DNA of 63,365 nucleotides from Phycisphaerae bacterium (lineage in GTDB: Bacteria; Planctomycetota; Phycisphaerae; Phycisphaerales; SM1A02). Both the position numbers and the translations under genes were made by a program. Below the pieces are notes generated by a model. It did not search any database, was not told where the DNA came from, and saw nothing but the letters and a program-made list of their open reading frames with translations. The stretch is taken from assembly GCA_002862305.1 (NCBI GenBank), contig PKCS01000092.1, positions 1-63,365 of the forward strand. The letters are read 5' to 3'. Below, piece by piece: positions 40,800 to 50,792 of the stretch (the first letter of the stretch is position 1; every line of letters starts with the position of its first letter).

Positions 40800-41942
40800 T
40801 CAGTCGCGGTGAATATCCTCGGGGTTCGGAGCGGGGTCCGCCCAGCGCTTGCGGAGGGGGACGACCTCCAGGGGCACGTCCGCGAGGATCCGGGCGATTC
40901 GCGCCCCGGCATCGCCGGAACCGAACCGGTCGTCGGGTCCGACCGACCGGAGGGATTCCGCCTCGATCAGCGCGGCGTCCAGCGCGGGTCCGGTAAGCGG
41001 ATCGACGTGGACCACGGTCCGCGGGCGTTCGCGTCCCGACTGCCGGGTGCCGATGTCCACCGCCGGACGACCGACCGCGGCGCATTCGATGAGCCCGGCA
41101 CTGCTGTTGCCGACGAGCACCTCGATCCGACGGAGCAGTCCGATGAACTCCGCCCGCGGCAGGTGCTCGAGGACAGGCAGCGGTGCGGAGTCCAGCGCGA
41201 TGCGGATCCCGGTGCATCCGGGATCGTGGTTCGGGGCCATGACCAGGGAGGGCCCGCGGGCGGCGACGGTCTTCACGATGAGTTCCATCCGTCGCTGCTC
41301 GACGTGGTCGGGATCCCCCACCGGATGGTGGAGGACCAGGAACCGAGGCGCCCCCAGTTCCCGCCAGCGGACCTCGTCGAGGACCGGGAACGTCGAGAGG
41401 TCGTCGACCGCGGGGGAGCCGACCATGTGGATCACGTCCGATGGCTCGCCCATCGACTCGATGCGCGAGGCACTGGAGGTGGTCGCGGGGAAGTGGAGGT
41501 GCGCGAGCTTGGTCACGGCATGGCGGATGCCCTCGTCGCAGATGCCGGAGGCGATGTCGCCTCCATGGACGTGGGCGACCCGGATCCCGAGGACCGCCGC
41601 GGCGGTCGCGGCGGCAAGGACCTCGATCCGGTCGCCCAGGACCACCAGGAAGTCCGGGGGGTCGGGGGCGAGCACCTCGGTCATCGAGAGGATGCCCCGA
41701 CCGATCGACTCCGCGTCGGATCGACGGGTGCGCGAGCAATCCGCCTGCATCTCGACCACCGACTGGATGGTGCGCTCGCGGGCGACCTGTTCGATGGTCG
41801 GCGGGGTGCCCAGGAGGTGCGCCCCCCCCGCCACCAGTCGATCGTCCACGGTGGGGTCCTGTTCCAGGGCATCGAGGAGCGAGCCCAGCAGCCCGTAGTC
41901 AGCACGACTCCCGGTGAAGACCGTGATCTTGCGTCGAGTCAT
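40800..41942 (-). CDS. neuC: UDP-N-acetylglucosamine 2-epimerase (hydrolysing), NeuC/LegG type
   Basis: First pathway step: hydrolysing 2-epimerisation of UDP-GlcNAc to ManNAc plus UDP (or of UDP-diNAcBac if LegG). The 380-aa protein opens ITVFTGSRADYGLLGSLLDA, has FLVVLGDRIEVLAAATAA and VAHVHGGDI, then RHAVTKLAHLHFPAT and the nucleotide-site VGNSSAGLIECAAVGRPAVDI. Start ATG overlaps the neuB stop (ATGA). Its place with neuB and neuA in one coupled unit supports nonulosonic-acid synthesis; the exact sugar is not decided by sequence alone. Confidence 0.9.
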   Translation of the reverse strand: MTRRKITVFTGSRADYGLLGSLLDALEQDPTVDDRLVAGGAHLLGTPPTIEQVARERTIQSVVEMQADCSRTRRSDAESIGRGILSMTEVLAPDPPDFLVVLGDRIEVLAAATAAAVLGIRVAHVHGGDIASGICDEGIRHAVTKLAHLHFPATTSSASRIESMGEPSDVIHMVGSPAVDDLSTFPVLDEVRWRELGAPRFLVLHHPVGDPDHVEQRRMELIVKTVAARGPSLVMAPNHDPGCTGIRIALDSAPLPVLEHLPRAEFIGLLRRIEVLVGNSSAGLIECAAVGRPAVDIGTRQSGRERPRTVVHVDPLTGPALDAALIEAESLRSVGPDDRFGSGDAGARIARILADVPLEVVPLRKRWADPAPNPEDIHRD

Positions 41943-42997
41943 GTCCCCACCTCGTCTCGAAGGTCGTCCTCGCCGAGGAGGCTGCCCGGCACGAGGTCGC
42001 GGGCGGCGCGCCGGCCGACCAGCGAGTCGAGGCGATCCGGGGAAATGCCGCCTCCGGGACGCATGGTGGTGAGGGCGCCCCTCGGGATCGGGGCACCGGC
42101 GGGCACCGGCTCGCGAACCGCCACGGACTGGGCCGAGGCGAGGCGCACCTCGACCTCGCAGTCCTGGACGGCCTTGTCCGGACCGCCAAGCATGCGTCGC
42201 GCCTCGCGTGCGAAGCGGACGTACTCCTGGAACGCGGCGGGCTCGAGCGAGAGGGCGTGGTCGGGTCCGGACCGGGAGCGGTCGAGGGTCAGGTGCTTCT
42301 CGAGGATCGTGGCCCCGGCCGCGACCGCGAGCCCGCCGGCCTGGATCGATTTGGTGTGGTCGCTGTAGCCCACCGGCAGCCCCGTGGTCCCGGCGATCAG
42401 CCGGATGCCGGCAAGGGCGGCGTCGTCGAGCTGGGTGGGGTAGCTGCTGACGCACTGGAGCAGCGCGAGATCGCGGGGGCCGACCCAGGAGACCGCACGA
42501 ACGACCTCCTGCATCCCGTGGCCACCGGTACTGAGGATCAGGGGACGCCCCGTCCCGCGGAGGGCGTCGAGCAGGGGGCGGTTCCCGAGGTCCGGGGAGG
42601 CGGTCTTCAGGAACGACCACGGCAGCCGCGCGGCCGCCTCGACCAGTGCGGGGGTGAAGACCGTGACGCCGGCCAGCAGTCCGAGCGAGTCCGCGAGGGC
42701 CGCGGCCTCGGCGAACTGGTCGATCGAGAGGCTCAGGCGCCCGAGCATCGCGCGCGGGTCGAACTCACCGGCTTCCTTCTGGTACGTGACCACCGAGGAG
42801 GACGTGGAGAGCAGCTGGTCCGGATCGAACCACTGGAACTTCACCGCATCGGCGCCCGAGGACCCCGCGGCATGGACGAGCTCGAGGCATCGGGTGAGGT
42901 CGCCATCGTGGTTGACGCCGATCTCGGCGATCACGAGGGGGTCGGTCGCGGAGATCGACCACGGGACCCGGGATGCGTGGTTCGCGGGGTGGTTCAT
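41939..42997 (-). CDS. neuB: N-acetylneuraminate/nonulosonate synthase NeuB with SAF domain
   Basis: Condenses PEP with ManNAc (or a diacetamido hexose) to a nine-carbon acid. The TIM barrel has VIAEIGVNHDGDLTRCLELV, GADAVKFQWF, FLKTASPDLGNRPLL and GYSDHTKSIQAGGLAVAAGA ending in EKHLTLDR. The C-terminal SAF/antifreeze-like domain (about residues 285-352) starts near RLASAQSVAVREPVPAG. Length 352 fits the family. It overlaps neuA by four bases before it and neuC by four after. A QWF in place of the frequent QTF may influence sugar choice, but that is a guess. Confidence 0.93.
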   Translation of the reverse strand: MNHPANHASRVPWSISATDPLVIAEIGVNHDGDLTRCLELVHAAGSSGADAVKFQWFDPDQLLSTSSSVVTYQKEAGEFDPRAMLGRLSLSIDQFAEAAALADSLGLLAGVTVFTPALVEAAARLPWSFLKTASPDLGNRPLLDALRGTGRPLILSTGGHGMQEVVRAVSWVGPRDLALLQCVSSYPTQLDDAALAGIRLIAGTTGLPVGYSDHTKSIQAGGLAVAAGATILEKHLTLDRSRSGPDHALSLEPAAFQEYVRFAREARRMLGGPDKAVQDCEVEVRLASAQSVAVREPVPAGAPIPRGALTTMRPGGGISPDRLDSLVGRRAARDLVPGSLLGEDDLRDEVGT

Positions 42998-43719
42998 GGA
43001 GTGATTCCGGGGGAGGGGCCGCCGCGGATGATCGAGTCGGCGACCACCAGGTCCAGTTCATCGTCGATGTCCACCACCTCGCCGGGCCGGGTGCGGATCC
43101 CCCGACGATCCTCCCCGAGGAAGGCGTGCGGGTGATCCGGCCGGACCGTGAACAGGGCCTCCCTCCGCAGGGCGATCACCCCCCCGTCGGGGAAGTGGGC
43201 GTCGGGAAGGTCCTGCCGGCGATAGACGGTGTTCGGGTGCCAGGGCGAGACCCGGTCGCCGTCGGTGAGGTTGACCATCCACCAGGGGTGGTGCTTGCCC
43301 ACGGGCGCGTAGCTCTGGACGCTGTCGGCCCCGGTCTCGACCAGGTGGCCGATCGCCCGGTCCACCAGGTCCGGGGGACGTACGGGTACGTTCGCGTAGA
43401 GGATGACCACCCGCTGGTGTCCCGAATCGGTGGAGGTGACGGCGTGACGCACCGCCTCGTCGATGGTGGCGTCGTCGCCGGCCATGGAAGCCGGTCGCAT
43501 GACCACTTCCGCACCCTCGGCCCGCGCCGCTCGCGCGATGTCCTCGCCGTCGGTCGAGACCACGACGCGATCGACGTGACGGGAGCGAGCGGCGTGCTCG
43601 ATCGAGTACGCGATCATCGGGCGTCCGGCGAGCAGTCGTGCATTCTTGCCGGGGAGGCCCTTGCTGCCGGCTCGCCCCACGATCACGGCGAGCGCCGGTG
43701 CTGGAGGATCGCTGCTCAT
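42994..43719 (-). CDS. neuA: CMP-nonulosonic acid cytidylyltransferase NeuA
   Basis: Activates the nine-carbon acid with CTP to give the CMP-sugar donor. 241 aa with the nucleotide-binding opening VIVGRAGSKGLPGKNARLL, then GRPMIAYSIEHA, VVVSTDGEDIARAA and VDIDDELDLVVADSII at the end with the metal-binding Asp pair. It overlaps the big Maf-fusion gene (ATGA) and neuB (ATGA). The product would be the donor used by the Maf-like transferase part of that neighbour. Confidence 0.92.
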   Translation of the reverse strand: MSSDPPAPALAVIVGRAGSKGLPGKNARLLAGRPMIAYSIEHAARSRHVDRVVVSTDGEDIARAARAEGAEVVMRPASMAGDDATIDEAVRHAVTSTDSGHQRVVILYANVPVRPPDLVDRAIGHLVETGADSVQSYAPVGKHHPWWMVNLTDGDRVSPWHPNTVYRRQDLPDAHFPDGGVIALRREALFTVRPDHPHAFLGEDRRGIRTRPGEVVDIDDELDLVVADSIIRGGPSPGITP

Positions 43720-46700
43720 GACTGGTAGGTCCTCACCAGGGGCGATCGAGGCCCCTGCTCCCGCAGGGCCCGCCGGCGGCCGGCCACCACCCTCCGCCAG
43801 AGTTCGAGCACGCCTTCACGGTCGACGTTGCCGGCGGAAGCCCTGGCTTCCAGGTCGCCCTCCGCGAAGGGGACGGTCCCGTCGCTGTAGATCACCATCC
43901 GCCGGAAGCTCTCGGCGACCTGGGTGCGTTCGGGGTTGCTGGCGTCGGCGATGGCGGGACCGTTGGATCCCCCCTGCCCCAGCGCGATCGATTCCTGGTC
44001 GATCACCGCGGTGCCGAGGACCTCCTGCCATCGTTCGAAGAAGGACTCGATGTCCGAGCAGGTCACCGGGGTCCTCTGGATCCGGGGCACCACCCACGGG
44101 AGTGCGAGGGCGCCGGGCCCCTCCCCGGCCAGGCAACGCCGGCACTCGATGAGCAGCCGGATGCGGTCGATGGCGGTCCGGTACCCGTCGTGGCCCATGG
44201 CGACTCGGTAGGACTCCGGCGAGTCGGCGTTCAGGTCGACGGAGACCACCTGCACGCCGGAATGCGCGAGCTCGCGGACCCGCTCCTCCGAACACTGCAG
44301 CTCGGTCCGGACGTGCACCCCGCGAATCCCCGCGTCGAGCGCGGTCCGGATGTAGTCGATGCAGCGGGGATGCTGCAGCGGATCCCCCACCCCCGCGAGG
44401 GTGATCATGGCGTCCCGGGAATCGGCGAGGTCGGAGATGATGCGGTTGAACCGCTGGTCGTTCATCGCCTCCCGCTGGATGGTGCCGGCGCGATGCGGAC
44501 TGCAGGATCCGCAGCCGAGACGACCGGTGCACAGCTCGACGACCACGTGCCGGGGCGTGAACTGCGGGAGCCCTCCGCGCCTCTGGTACTCGAGCTGGTC
44601 GATGATGTCGCGGCTGGAGAATCCATCACGCGAGGGCCGCTGGTTCGTGAGGATCGGTTCCATGGCGCACCGTATCCGGTATCGGGTGCGAGGCGCGTCG
44701 AAGACCGCGCGGAGCAGGGATCGACGCACCTGCGGGTCCAGGGGGAGGTTCGCCTCGCCGACGATGGGGTCGTGTTCCGCCCGGCCGGGGCGGTACCCGA
44801 GCATCGCCCCGATGGTGGCAAGCCGATTACGGCGCGAGAAGGTCCGCATGAGTCGACGGGAGACCAGGCAGGCACCGAGCCCGGGCGGGGACTGGGAGAA
44901 CAGGAGCTGGTGACGGCCTCCGGAGGCGCGCCATCGGTCGATCATCGGGTCGATGCCCCCATGGCCGCTGATCTCGACCAGGGGCCAGTCCGGCCCGACC
45001 AGGATCGCGCCGTCCAGGTCGTCGCGCTCCATCACGGCGTGCATCGACTGCGGAGCCAGCACCTCGTCGAAGGCGGTCATGCCGGCGATCCCACCTCGCC
45101 AGCACCGATCAGCGAACATGCGGGCGGCGACGATCGCGTCGTGCTCCGGCCCGAAGGGGGAGGTCCCGCAGGACTCGATGCTGAGGGGGACGTCGAGCTG
45201 GAGCCCGGTCACGCGCGGCCCCAGCTCGTAGTCCTCGGGGGCCAGGATGATGATTCCCTGCAGTCTCCGGGAGCTCGCGAGCCTCTGCAGGGTGAGCTCG
45301 AGCCCGGTTCGTTCGCCGATCATGTGGTCGAGTCGACGACGCGAGCCCGCCCCCCCGCGGAACGGGTCGAGGGGGACGAATGCGACCACGGAGTCGGTGG
45401 GTGATCCCGCGTCGCCGGTGACGACGCCGATCGAGTCGGATACGCGCGGGGAGGACGCGGGATCCGGTCGGTCGGTTCCACCATCCGACTGCAGGGCATC
45501 GATGACGCCCGCGAGCAGGCGCTCGGATTCGCCGGAGGCTTCCCGGAAGAACCCGACGTTCACCAGGTCCCGCTCGATCTGCTCGGATTGCCGGGCCCTT
45601 GGATCGGACGAATCACGGACCGCGATCCTGCGATCGGCGAGGTACCGCTTGAAGGCCCCGATCCGGTTCACCCGATCGACGAACGAGAAGGCCGCCGGGA
45701 GCTCGGCGACCGCCCGCCGCCTGCCCTCGATCTCGCGGAAGGTCTTCCCGGACCGGACCGGGTCCTCGAGCTGGTCCGCGAGCTGGCTGAGCAGCTGCTC
45801 GGTCTCGGCGGAGACGACCCCCAGCCGAGCGACCTGGGCCGAGAACGCCTCGATGCGTCGCACCAGCGCGGATCGAGGGGGTCCGGGGCGAGGAACCACC
45901 GCGGGCAGGGACAGCAGGCCGCGGCCGCGGTCGGCATGTGCATCCAGGGCCTCCCGGAGGGTGCAGGACTCGGTGCCCGCCTTGCGAACGCCACCCTCGG
46001 TGGCGTCGAGGGTGGTCAGGCCACGTTGTCGGTCGCGGGTGAAGAATGCCTCGAACTGCCTCAGGTAGGAGAGCATCTGGTCATCGGTCAGGATCGGGCG
46101 GTCGTGGACGTCCCGGAGCCGGTGAAGCATTCCCTTGTGGCGGACGATGCGCTGCCACTCCATCATCGCAAGGGTGTTGAAGGGATTCAGCTCGGTCGAC
46201 CAGACGTCGTCGATCGCGGTCCCCCGGGAGTAGTAGACGCCGTCGGTGAAGCCCAGGTCCTGACCCACCAGCGCGACGGGATCGCATCCGAGGTGGCGGG
46301 CAAGGTGGTAGGAGAGGTGGGCGACGGTGCTGGCCGCGGGAAGCGCGGCGAGGCCGGGGGCGTCCTCCCCGAGGACTTCCTCGAGCACCAGGGCCCGGCA
46401 CCACCGTACCGTGCCCGGCCAGCAATCCGCGATCACCGGATGCGCCTGGGGGAGGGCGACGAGGGTGACCCCCTCGACGTCGGATGCGGTGATCCCCTCG
46501 TAGAAGCGTCGGGAGATCTGGTGGTAGTCGAGGGCGGTCACGAAATGCGGACGGACCCCGGCTTCGAGCAGGGGACGCAGGGTGGTCTGCGCGGAGATGA
46601 CCACGCATCGGGAGCGGATCCCCTCGTCCGCGAGGAGGTGGAGGTTCTTCTGGAGACTCGGCCCCGCACTCACCACCACCCCGAGCCGGCCGCGGGCCAC

Positions 46701-47423
46701 CCCGGCGAGGTCACCGATCCCCGACCCGCTCGCGTAGCGGCCGAGGTTCCCCAGCTCGTTGCGCACGGTGCCGACGCTTCGCATCAGCTCGGTGGAGACG
46801 GTCATCCGCGCCCGGCCGATCGCGTCGGCGAGCCGAGAGGAGAATGCCTGCGTCCGGCCCGCGAGGCGACCGGCGGAGGCGGGATGCTCGAGGATCCTGG
46901 TGCCGGCGACCATCTGCGACTCGAGATCCGACCAGGCGGCACCAAGCTGCCGGCCATCGGCCTCGTCGCAGACGATCCTGACCCGTGCGGGATCCAACCA
47001 GCCCGTGCAGTCGATCCGCGAGAGGACCGTCCGGAGCAGTCCGGGGTCCGGTTCGAACACCGTCACCACGCCGGTTCCCCTCAGCCGCTCGACCACGGCC
47101 TGCACGTGGTAGCCGAGCCCGAAGCCGAGGATCGCGGCGAACGCGGTTTCGGCCACGTCGAGCTGGTCCGCGAACCGCGAGGCCTCGCCACGGGGCTGGT
47201 GCATGCTGGCCAGGCGGAGTCCGTCCCCGAGCACCCCCACCACGCTGCCGTCCTCGGCGGTGGTGAACTCGACGTGGGTCGGTTCGGCGCCGCGGATGCG
47301 GTCGGCCACCCTCGCCCCGGGCGGACCCAGGGCGGATAGATTCCGTTCGAGCGTCCCGGGGTCACCCCGATCCTCGGCGAGGCTACCATGTTCGTCGGCC
47401 GTTCCTGAATCGCTTGGCGGCAT
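43716..47423 (-). CDS. Giant Maf-type glycosyltransferase fused to nucleotidyltransferase-like and radical-SAM/SPASM-like regions
   Basis: 1235 aa. Residues about 30-570 resemble Maf/DUF115 motility-associated proteins, which transfer nonulosonic acids to flagellin. Key parts are AAILGFGLGYHVQAVV, TVFEPDPGLLR, LGVVVSAGPSLQKNLHLL and FVTALDYHQISRRFYEG, then VALVGQDLGFTDGVYYSRGT. A middle region (about 650-950) looks like an SpsF-type nucleotidyltransferase (VAFVPLDPFRGGAGSRR, GIIILAPED). The last 270 residues resemble radical SAM: ELCTGRLGCGSC carries CX5CX2C rather than CX3CX2C. A SPASM-like end (VIYSDGTVPFAEGDLEARA) has no Cys. Start 47423 is chosen because upstream sequence is Arg-rich and unlike the domain; 47525 is possible. 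Confidence 0.8.
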   Translation of the reverse strand: MPPSDSGTADEHGSLAEDRGDPGTLERNLSALGPPGARVADRIRGAEPTHVEFTTAEDGSVVGVLGDGLRLASMHQPRGEASRFADQLDVAETAFAAILGFGLGYHVQAVVERLRGTGVVTVFEPDPGLLRTVLSRIDCTGWLDPARVRIVCDEADGRQLGAAWSDLESQMVAGTRILEHPASAGRLAGRTQAFSSRLADAIGRARMTVSTELMRSVGTVRNELGNLGRYASGSGIGDLAGVARGRLGVVVSAGPSLQKNLHLLADEGIRSRCVVISAQTTLRPLLEAGVRPHFVTALDYHQISRRFYEGITASDVEGVTLVALPQAHPVIADCWPGTVRWCRALVLEEVLGEDAPGLAALPAASTVAHLSYHLARHLGCDPVALVGQDLGFTDGVYYSRGTAIDDVWSTELNPFNTLAMMEWQRIVRHKGMLHRLRDVHDRPILTDDQMLSYLRQFEAFFTRDRQRGLTTLDATEGGVRKAGTESCTLREALDAHADRGRGLLSLPAVVPRPGPPRSALVRRIEAFSAQVARLGVVSAETEQLLSQLADQLEDPVRSGKTFREIEGRRRAVAELPAAFSFVDRVNRIGAFKRYLADRRIAVRDSSDPRARQSEQIERDLVNVGFFREASGESERLLAGVIDALQSDGGTDRPDPASSPRVSDSIGVVTGDAGSPTDSVVAFVPLDPFRGGAGSRRRLDHMIGERTGLELTLQRLASSRRLQGIIILAPEDYELGPRVTGLQLDVPLSIESCGTSPFGPEHDAIVAARMFADRCWRGGIAGMTAFDEVLAPQSMHAVMERDDLDGAILVGPDWPLVEISGHGGIDPMIDRWRASGGRHQLLFSQSPPGLGACLVSRRLMRTFSRRNRLATIGAMLGYRPGRAEHDPIVGEANLPLDPQVRRSLLRAVFDAPRTRYRIRCAMEPILTNQRPSRDGFSSRDIIDQLEYQRRGGLPQFTPRHVVVELCTGRLGCGSCSPHRAGTIQREAMNDQRFNRIISDLADSRDAMITLAGVGDPLQHPRCIDYIRTALDAGIRGVHVRTELQCSEERVRELAHSGVQVVSVDLNADSPESYRVAMGHDGYRTAIDRIRLLIECRRCLAGEGPGALALPWVVPRIQRTPVTCSDIESFFERWQEVLGTAVIDQESIALGQGGSNGPAIADASNPERTQVAESFRRMVIYSDGTVPFAEGDLEARASAGNVDREGVLELWRRVVAGRRRALREQGPRSPLVRTYQS

Positions 47424-48128: not shown

Positions 48129-50792
48129 TCAATCCGCAGGCCGGGCGGGTGCGGCCTCCACGATCGCGTCCGCGGAAGCCGGAAGCTCGATCATGCGCAC
48201 CACTCGCGAGTCCGCCTGCACCTCGTAGGCCCCGAAGGTGATCTGCTTGCCGCCCAGCCGGACCTGGCCGTCGGGGAACGAGAAGGTCCGGGAGGCGGAC
48301 TCCCCGGGACGGATGCCCGGCAGCGAACGCCGCAGCGGGGGATAGCCGGCGGCCTGGCAGAATGCCTTCAGTTGCAGCGGCTTCGCGCCCGTGTTGGTGA
48401 CGGTGACCGTCACCAGGACCCCGCGGTCCCCTTCGTCCGCGGGGTTCGAGAGGGTCCAGTCCGCCTCGACCGCCAGGCAGGATGAATCGATCCTGGTCGG
48501 GATCAGGAGGGTGGTCAGGAGGTTGCGCTTCCCCTGGAGTTCGGCGTCCACCCGGAGGTCGACGTCACCCTCCAGCTGGAGGCGCGGGTAGGTGAATGCG
48601 AACGGGACCGAGGCCGTACCCCGGGGCTGCACGGTGACGGTCCGGCTCCTCGGCTGGAACTCGAATTGTCCGGGGCCCACCGGACGGAGTCGAACCTCGA
48701 CGGGTTCGTTCCAGGGATTGGCGAGCTCGATGGTGAACTCGTGCATGCCGGTGGAGGCCTCGATGGTCTCTGGCTCGATGCGGACGTTCGCCCGGAATCG
48801 GGCGACCTCGGGATCGATGCCGTCGACGAAGACGGGAGACTCCCCGATCTCGACCAGGTGGCCGTGGGTGCCGGGGGAACAGGACTCCGTGGTGCCGTCG
48901 ACGTGCGAGATGGAGAGCGGTCCGGCGGTGGCGTCGAGTTCCATCGAGGCGCGGCCGTCGCGGGACCAGGCGACGAGGAAGGCGTCCCGTCCCTCGCCGG
49001 CGAGCACCGCCCTCACCCCGCGACCGAGGGGGACCTCCGCGAGGGGGGGATTGCCCGAGAGACGCGAGCGAAGGATCGTGAAGGCGTAGCCCTCGACCGT
49101 CAGGCCACGACGGGAGGCGTTCGGATCCGGTTCCCACGGGGCGGGGGTCTCGATGCGGTCGGCTCCCGACGCCCAGGTCTCGACCGCCTGGAGGGCGAAG
49201 CCCTGGGCGGACATGCGCCGGGTCGGGGTCGAGGGACCGTCCCGGAGGTGGACGATGCGACCGGGCTCGCCCGGAACCCGGGATCCGAGGATGGGCGGGG
49301 CGGGCTGCGGGGAGGCGGGGTCGTAGTGCACCAGGTGCACGTCCAGGGACGACTCGGCGGGGGCGGCATAGTCGTCGGGGAACGAGGGCTTGAGTTCGAG
49401 CTGGGCGGCCGCGACGAACTCGTCGGCGATCACCCGGAGGTTGTCGATGGCGTCCGTGGCCTCCGCGGAATCCGGCGGGACCTCGTTGCGCAGCCTCCAG
49501 CGGGAGACCTCGTCTCCGAATTCCGCCATCCACGGCAGGAGCTGCCGGGCCGCCTCGGGGGACGAACCGAGGAACCCGCAGACCTGGTCCGGATCGAGGG
49601 AGAGTCCCTGAGGTTGCAGCGTCTCGGGGATCGAGGCGATCTCGAACACGGGCTCGACCTGGCGCGCGTGGAGGACGTCGATCATGGCGTTGTAGTAGTT
49701 CGAGCGCGCCGCATCGAGGTCCGCCGGCTGGCCGGGTCGCCAGACCGGCAACACCGCGTAGTCGGGGGCGAGGGCCTCGATCATGGAGGCGTGCTCGAGC
49801 AGGCCGGGCGAGGCCCGGTCCGGCAGCGCGACCCCGAAGAACGGACCGCGATGCCCGAGGGCCGGCCGACCGGGCGTTGGCAGGACCGAGAGCATCTGTT
49901 CCTTGACGGCGACGATCGACTCCCCGTCGAGCAGTTCGAGCCGGCTGTGGTACCAGCCGGGGGACAGTCCCTCCAGGGCCCGGGTGACCAGGGTGCTCCC
50001 CCGTCGAATCTCGATCGGGTGCTCGTCGACCACGAATCCGTCGAGGTCGGTGGTCCGCAGCATGGCGGAGAGTCCTCCGGTGGTGAGGTCCCGGATGTCG
50101 ACCCGCAAGGACGGGGTCGTCGGGGAGTGCACGACCCCGGTCGGAGGGACCGCCTCGAGCTGCATGCGAGGAAGCTGCCAGACCTCCACGTCATCGAACC
50201 AGACGTTCCCCCGGATGTCGGCGCGGGGCCCCTGCTCGACGTGGAGTTCGAAGACCAGGTCCACCGCCTCCTCGACCTCCATCGGGGGGCGTACCGTCAG
50301 CAGGGCCCAGTCCCCGCGGGTCCGGACCGGTTCCGAGGTGCGGAAGGTTCCGGGGAGCTCCTCGCCGTCGGCGTCGAGCAGCCGGACCTTCAGTACCGCA
50401 GCCGCACCCTCGAGTCCGGAGGTCCGGACCCGGGTTCGGACCTCGTAGAGGCTCTGGGGGAAGATGGGGATCCGGGCACGGGGGATGCCGACCGCGATCG
50501 GCGCGCCGTCCAGCGTGAACTTCAACGACCAGTCGCCGGAGTACGCCTCGGATCGCTCGACCCCGACCTCGCCGAAGTCGGGGAAGCCCGGTCGTCCGTT
50601 GCCGGAGAGGATCCGGAAGAAGGGTCGCGGGAGGGGCGAGTGGAAGTCGCTGGCCTCCTCGAACCCGAAGAACTCGACCTTCTGCCGCTGGGACGCGAGC
50701 ACCTGCGCGGGGAGGTCCTCGTCGGGAGCCGGAAGGGCCCCGGTCGCCTGGAGGCAGAGGGCGAGCAGGACTGATGGATGCGTCAGGGGCAT
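48129..50792 (-). CDS. Large secreted multidomain protein of unknown function
   Basis: 887 aa with a signal peptide (SVLLALCLQATGALPAP). Residues about 40-210 are beta-rich, with VWFDDVEVWQL at the end, like a carbohydrate-binding jelly roll (CBM4/9-type). A central region (about 310-600) alternates helix and strand (DYAVLPVWRPGQPADLDAAR, FEIASIPETL) like a TIM-barrel glycoside hydrolase, but I cannot find a clear catalytic pair. The C-terminal 220 residues look like two Ig-like domains (VRIEPETIEASTGMHEFTIE and LVTVTVTNTGAKPLQLK). Probably a cell-surface or secreted polysaccharide-interacting protein. Confidence 0.7.
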   Translation of the reverse strand: MPLTHPSVLLALCLQATGALPAPDEDLPAQVLASQRQKVEFFGFEEASDFHSPLPRPFFRILSGNGRPGFPDFGEVGVERSEAYSGDWSLKFTLDGAPIAVGIPRARIPIFPQSLYEVRTRVRTSGLEGAAAVLKVRLLDADGEELPGTFRTSEPVRTRGDWALLTVRPPMEVEEAVDLVFELHVEQGPRADIRGNVWFDDVEVWQLPRMQLEAVPPTGVVHSPTTPSLRVDIRDLTTGGLSAMLRTTDLDGFVVDEHPIEIRRGSTLVTRALEGLSPGWYHSRLELLDGESIVAVKEQMLSVLPTPGRPALGHRGPFFGVALPDRASPGLLEHASMIEALAPDYAVLPVWRPGQPADLDAARSNYYNAMIDVLHARQVEPVFEIASIPETLQPQGLSLDPDQVCGFLGSSPEAARQLLPWMAEFGDEVSRWRLRNEVPPDSAEATDAIDNLRVIADEFVAAAQLELKPSFPDDYAAPAESSLDVHLVHYDPASPQPAPPILGSRVPGEPGRIVHLRDGPSTPTRRMSAQGFALQAVETWASGADRIETPAPWEPDPNASRRGLTVEGYAFTILRSRLSGNPPLAEVPLGRGVRAVLAGEGRDAFLVAWSRDGRASMELDATAGPLSISHVDGTTESCSPGTHGHLVEIGESPVFVDGIDPEVARFRANVRIEPETIEASTGMHEFTIELANPWNEPVEVRLRPVGPGQFEFQPRSRTVTVQPRGTASVPFAFTYPRLQLEGDVDLRVDAELQGKRNLLTTLLIPTRIDSSCLAVEADWTLSNPADEGDRGVLVTVTVTNTGAKPLQLKAFCQAAGYPPLRRSLPGIRPGESASRTFSFPDGQVRLGGKQITFGAYEVQADSRVVRMIELPASADAIVEAAPARPAD

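Follow-up and report, generated by a model that had tools for sequence, protein, structure and literature searches.

A planctomycete Maf glycosyltransferase fused to a spiro-SPASM-like partner that lacks the radical-SAM cluster motif

We found that a 1235-residue protein of a Phycisphaerae bacterium joins a Maf glycosyltransferase to a second, separate protein (here called the C-half), which is descended from a spiro-SPASM-like protein combining an SpsF-type cytidylyltransferase fold with a radical-SAM/twitch fold. The stretch of DNA analyzed, referred to below as the window, comprises 63,365 nucleotides of contig PKCS01000092.1. The reading that we tentatively prefer, with a probability of roughly 0.45, is that Maf and its partner were fused once and that the partner is a non-radical module working on the flagellin side.

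The first-pass annotation of this DNA had described a single 1235-residue chain without giving its strand. The frame lies on the minus strand (Table 1), has no internal stops, is full length and stop-free in more than 20 genomes, and has a homologue with 66% identity across 1225 aa in a congener. A frame artefact is ruled out by the conservation in relatives together with the dN/dS values given below. The proposed translational coupling to neuA-neuB-neuC was likewise confirmed, since the stop codon of the fused gene and the start codon of neuA overlap by 4 nt, with similar overlaps between neuA, neuB and neuC, and this cluster is kept downstream of the gene in most relatives. Elsewhere in the window's genome there is a second NeuC-family gene (G000:C28:19830-20909), which outscores the neuC of the window. 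Upstream of the fused gene, also on the minus strand, we found an 887-aa frame (48129-50792) with no Pfam matches, and a look-alike protein is encoded upstream of the gene in locus L069. Pfam and structure prediction agree with the annotation in placing Maf, SpsF-like and radical-SAM-like parts in one chain, with borders slightly shifted to residues 25-648, 676-929 and 953-1235 and a linker at 649-675. Of the profiles expected to recognize these parts, the Maf one matched significantly, Radical_SAM stayed below its curated cut-off and no nucleotidyltransferase family of Pfam was hit.

Table 1. Features of the fused gene and its downstream neighbors (window positions)
Feature	Residues	Position	Strand	Basis
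Fused gene, 1235 aa		43716..47423	-	ATG start, stop codon included; open frame, conserved full length in relatives
Maf glycosyltransferase region, three domains	25-648	45480..47351	-	PF01973; 5MU5 structural match; profile versus 5MU5 E 1.9e-13
Central MptE-like / Maf_flag10 (old DUF115) domain, invariant AGPSL	222-394	46242..46760	-	PF01973
Linker between two former genes, disordered in the model	649-675	45399..45479	-	pLDDT <50 in full-length model; gene boundary in non-fused relatives
SpsF-like cytidylyltransferase fold, without P-loop signature; family signature WRGGxxG...DE	676-929	44637..45398	-	6OEW structural match
Pseudo-radical-SAM barrel, GVGDPLxHP present, CxxxCxxC absent	953-1140	44004..44567	-	PF04055 under cut-off; fold Z ~19
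Loop at the expected AdoMet [4Fe-4S] cluster site, ELCTGRLGCGSC, cysteines unconserved	963-974	44502..44537	-	Family alignments
Twitch/SPASM-like end, four cluster cysteines all lost	1141-1235	43719..44003	-	Alignment; TIGR04321 match to 971-1211
neuA-type CMP-nonulosonate cytidylyltransferase (PseF-like)		42994..43719	-	PF02348 E 7e-22; TIGR03584 101.9 bits, under its cut-off
neuB-type nonulosonate synthase		41939..42997	-	PF03102 E 8e-58; TIGR03569 253.9 bits, under its cut-off
neuC-type UDP-GlcNAc 2-epimerase		40800..41942	-	TIGR03568 267.1 bits, over its cut-off

Maf proteins are usually regarded as self-sufficient. The N-terminal part of the fused protein is, on the modeled structure, a complete three-domain Maf: PF01973 matched its central domain with E 3.5e-29 (102 bits against the Pfam cut-off of 34.6), the Magnetospirillum Maf (5MU5) aligned to residues 1-623 of the full-length model with Z 23.9 (524 residues, rmsd 6.4), and genes for CMP-nonulosonate synthesis, neuA-neuB-neuC, adjoin it. 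The full-length model (residues 25-1219, pLDDT 81.4) was built on a shallow alignment of 23 sequences, and its placement of the two halves is unreliable because the pTM is 0.58. Elsewhere, Maf binds flagellin directly without requiring the sugar, and the glycosylated flagellin is passed to its export chaperone (PMC4065374); weak similarity of the C-terminal Maf domain to FliS and flagellins has also been described (PMC11339370).

The sequence of the C-half indicates that it is homologous to the spiro-SPASM proteins, although by the cut-off rule it is not a member of their family, scoring 39-41 bits against TIGR04321 where 250 are needed. Scanning genome contigs with alignment A3 gave 22 loci, 15 of which are true relatives, all of them planctomycete; the named ones include Sedimentisphaerales and Phycisphaerae bacteria and Planctomycetales bacterium ZRK34. 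A literature search for spiro-SPASM and TIGR04321 found no papers.

The C-half was modeled with AlphaFold2 (residues 641-1235, shallow alignment of 16 sequences, mean pLDDT 79.7, pTM 0.83). In this model its first domain matches the Leptospira cytidylyltransferase 6OEW with Z 20.6 (219 residues, rmsd 2.6) and CMP-Kdo synthetase with Z 14.9. No nucleotidyltransferase match to this part of the window protein was found by sequence in Pfam or NCBIfam, and its identity is visible only through fold comparison and family profiles. The alignments lack the P-loop signature (GSxRLPGK type) expected of SpsF / CTP_transf_3 proteins; 6OEW retains GSTRLPGK and GDCPLID, whereas the window's family does not, and the DxPLxD motif is unconserved across the family. 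The sugar activation considered possible in the first-pass annotation is doubtful, since the cytidylyltransferase fold is there but the P-loop signature is absent and neuA is a separate adjoining gene. The family has invariants of its own in this fold (R93, WRGG, D111-E112, PG172-173, D210, R230 and D234), and the pattern of R, WRGG, DE, PG, D and R..D resembles that of a site for binding or catalysis. The main rival to our reading is that the SpsF-like fold has a new enzymatic activity: the C-half would be catalytically active through a non-canonical site in its SpsF/GT-A-like domain, modifying flagellin or nonulosonate with a nucleotide or nucleotide sugar, while the pseudo-radical-SAM part would serve as a scaffold. 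We consider this unlikely, though not very much so. The fold and its invariants are consistent with it, and the retention of the C-half where Maf and neuB have been lost (see below) would suit an independent modification, but the missing P-loop, the unconserved DxPLxD and the lack of a nucleotidyltransferase match in either database argue against it.

The remainder of the C-half, from residue 953 to the end, has a predicted radical-SAM/twitch fold, matching BlsE, MoaA, SkfB, anSME and BtrN with Z of about 19. PF04055 matched residues 968-1093 (E 6e-6), and in NCBIfam a tungsten-cofactor radical-SAM maturase family and spiro-SPASM were hit weakly. The [4Fe-4S] motif CxxxCxxC was found in 0 of 56 family members, versus CNLxCxxC at the aligned place in all six of the closest true radical-SAM relatives; the flanks of the cluster loop (IEVT..., TFGGFGEPLxHP) align clearly between the two sets. 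In the window protein, the loop contains CTGRLGCGSC (CX5CX2C), whose middle cysteine is unconserved even within the genus and whose last cysteine is found in the closest relatives only, the full set being private to this protein. Judged by its sequence, the partner cannot bind an AdoMet cluster in the standard way. At the C terminus, 19 non-fused relatives retain four cysteines, commonly spaced 18-45-3, of which the 45-3 part can be aligned to cysteines in the twitch domain of BtrN, a domain that binds one [4Fe-4S] auxiliary cluster (PMC6231123). A BtrN-like site with four cysteines for an auxiliary cluster is the usual state of the non-fused relatives; the window protein has none of the four cysteines, and no fused copy examined keeps the set. 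The radical chemistry postulated in the first-pass annotation was therefore not borne out, the motif being absent throughout the family and the auxiliary cysteines being lost in fused forms. A functional radical-SAM enzyme joined to Maf, as that annotation would have it, with CX5CX2C serving as the cluster motif, would fit the fold and the presence of CTGRLGCGSC together with the GVGDPL segment, but we regard it as highly improbable in view of the unconserved cysteines and of the contrast between the family and its true radical-SAM relatives.

The partnership with Maf is much wider than the fusion. Among 198 genomes of the window's class, counted with no account taken of shared ancestry, Maf and the C-half protein were found together in 92, Maf alone in 2 and the C-half alone in 2. 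The C-half gene stands right behind that of Maf in 84 of these 92 genomes, in 81 of them within 300 nt and in the other 3 within 1 kb; in 8 the two are on different contigs. The survey found the two fused in 19 of the class genomes, all in the window's order, and the Maf tree, with 29 fused rows, gives the fusion a single origin. The fusion is a one-time event within this order, involving two genes that are in tandem across the class, and the Maf/C-half/neu arrangement recurs in other planctomycete lineages. Of the new three-part module proposed initially, the fusion is real, but throughout the class the C-half turns out to be a partner protein in its own right, its gene following that of Maf. 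The sole "split" copy in the fused clade (L059, genome G019) has its break within Maf, around residue 540, where the frames overlap, and is probably a frameshift or a sequencing error. In another locus (L089, genome G087), one stand-alone C-half gene lies between two divergent Maf genes.

The distribution of the gene follows that of the flagellum. Among 61 relatives, 47 have both the gene and flagellin, 3 the gene only, 2 flagellin only and 9 neither (Fisher p 6e-7, a statistic that ignores shared ancestry). Four genomes that carry the gene but in which no flagellin was detected (G002, G003, G028 and G338) still have FlhA, and none of the six FlhA-less genomes tested carries the gene. Three further genomes (G007, G008 and G021) have flhA, with neither flagellin nor the Maf/C-half gene detected. 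In a distant planctomycete (L094, genome G122), a stand-alone C-half gene is found at a distance of some 3 kb from fliS, fliD and a flagellin gene, and Maf and NeuB are encoded in other parts of that genome.

A single clade comprising three genera (SH-aLRT 93) has lost most of Maf: in G018 (L069), G028 (L068) and G338 (L119) the Maf half is reduced to remnants, the C-half is complete and no NeuB was found. Because this clade spans three genera, the C-half has outlived Maf across genus divergence, and G018 and G028 retain every invariant column of the family alignment. In L069, the gene now stands directly before that of a protein resembling the product of the LON-substrate-binding gene, which in the window sits beyond neuABC. 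The C-half has been kept though neuB and most of Maf are lost; therefore, its function is separable from nonulosonate transfer, and we infer that this function is most likely flagellin-side recognition or handling. Against a flagellin-side role, G028 and G338 retain the C-half, with no flagellin detected there. The same clade bears on the proposal that the C-half feeds the donor, binding CMP-nonulosonate or NeuA and channeling the sugar to Maf. Its operon position between Maf and neuA, with overlapping start and stop codons, and its cytidylyltransferase fold are compatible with such channeling, which nevertheless seems quite improbable considering that the C-half is retained in three genera without neuB and is found elsewhere away from the neu genes, near fliS-fliD-flagellin.

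Every domain has a dN/dS of 0.07-0.18 within the window's genus, the fused gene of the window itself giving 0.10-0.18 against a congener, which indicates that all domains are under purifying selection there; in the L106/L107/L110 group the constraint on the C-terminal parts is somewhat looser, with dN/dS up to 0.44. In family f2 (L053, L055, L058 and L060) the gene is fused and keeps its SpsF-like part, with a shortened and strongly degenerate radical-SAM part. This degeneration is what would be expected if the C-half were a functionless, decaying passenger left by the fusion, but we find that very unlikely, since in the window's genus the C-half is no laxer than Maf, and another clade has retained it after losing Maf.

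Under the preferred flagellin-side reading, neuC, neuB and neuA would provide CMP-nonulosonate, the Maf half would transfer the nonulosonate to flagellin in the cytoplasm, and the C-half would be a disarmed enzyme reused to bind flagellin or its chaperone complex, or to present either to Maf, with the fusion holding the two halves at 1:1. More broadly, the partners might form a conserved class of flagellin-modification proteins, each a disarmed radical-SAM plus a disarmed nucleotidyltransferase, which in this planctomycete class almost always accompany Maf and which may also occur in spirochaetes, with a new non-radical activity of their own on flagellin that persists after nonulosonate transfer is lost; we hold this wider proposal to be rather unlikely. 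Nearly every Maf of the window's type across the class is accompanied by the second protein, and the existence of the fusion demonstrates that they can coexist in a single chain. Because the partner is an uncharacterised spiro-SPASM relative, that family gains a testable pathway, flagellin glycosylation, and the finding predicts that no radical chemistry is carried out by spiro-SPASM. The clade whose members have lost the sugar and most of Maf, yet retain the partner, offers a natural case in which the two functions are apart.

Compared with known systems, the Maf half shares with 5MU5 the three-domain architecture, the AGPSL motif and the adjoining CMP-nonulosonate genes, but its sequence is divergent (16-17% identity when the structures are aligned) and it is joined to a second protein. 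The SpsF-like part has the fold of 6OEW without its P-loop signature. BtrN (4M7T) resembles the C-terminal part in its barrel plus twitch fold and, for the stand-alone relatives with their four cysteines, in the aligned 45-3 part, whereas the window's family lacks the AdoMet-cluster motif and its fused copies lack the auxiliary-cluster cysteines as well. Stand-alone relatives within the phylum match almost the whole 510-position spiro-SPASM model TIGR04321 (E down to 1e-46), unlike the window protein, which is far under the cut-off, fused to Maf and devoid of the cluster cysteines. TIGR04347, which from its name we take to be a pseudo-SAM/SPASM protein with a radical-SAM fold and no cluster motif, shares the idea of a motif-less fold and gave a weak match, but it is a different family, unlinked to Maf here. 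The closest functional parallel we can offer is the flagellin glycosyltransferase FlmG of Caulobacter, whose specificity comes from a fused flagellin-binding domain (PMC7591256): it is alike only in its way of working, with one chain carrying both a transferase and a recognition module, since its TPR module and GT-B transferase are unrelated in sequence to the window protein.
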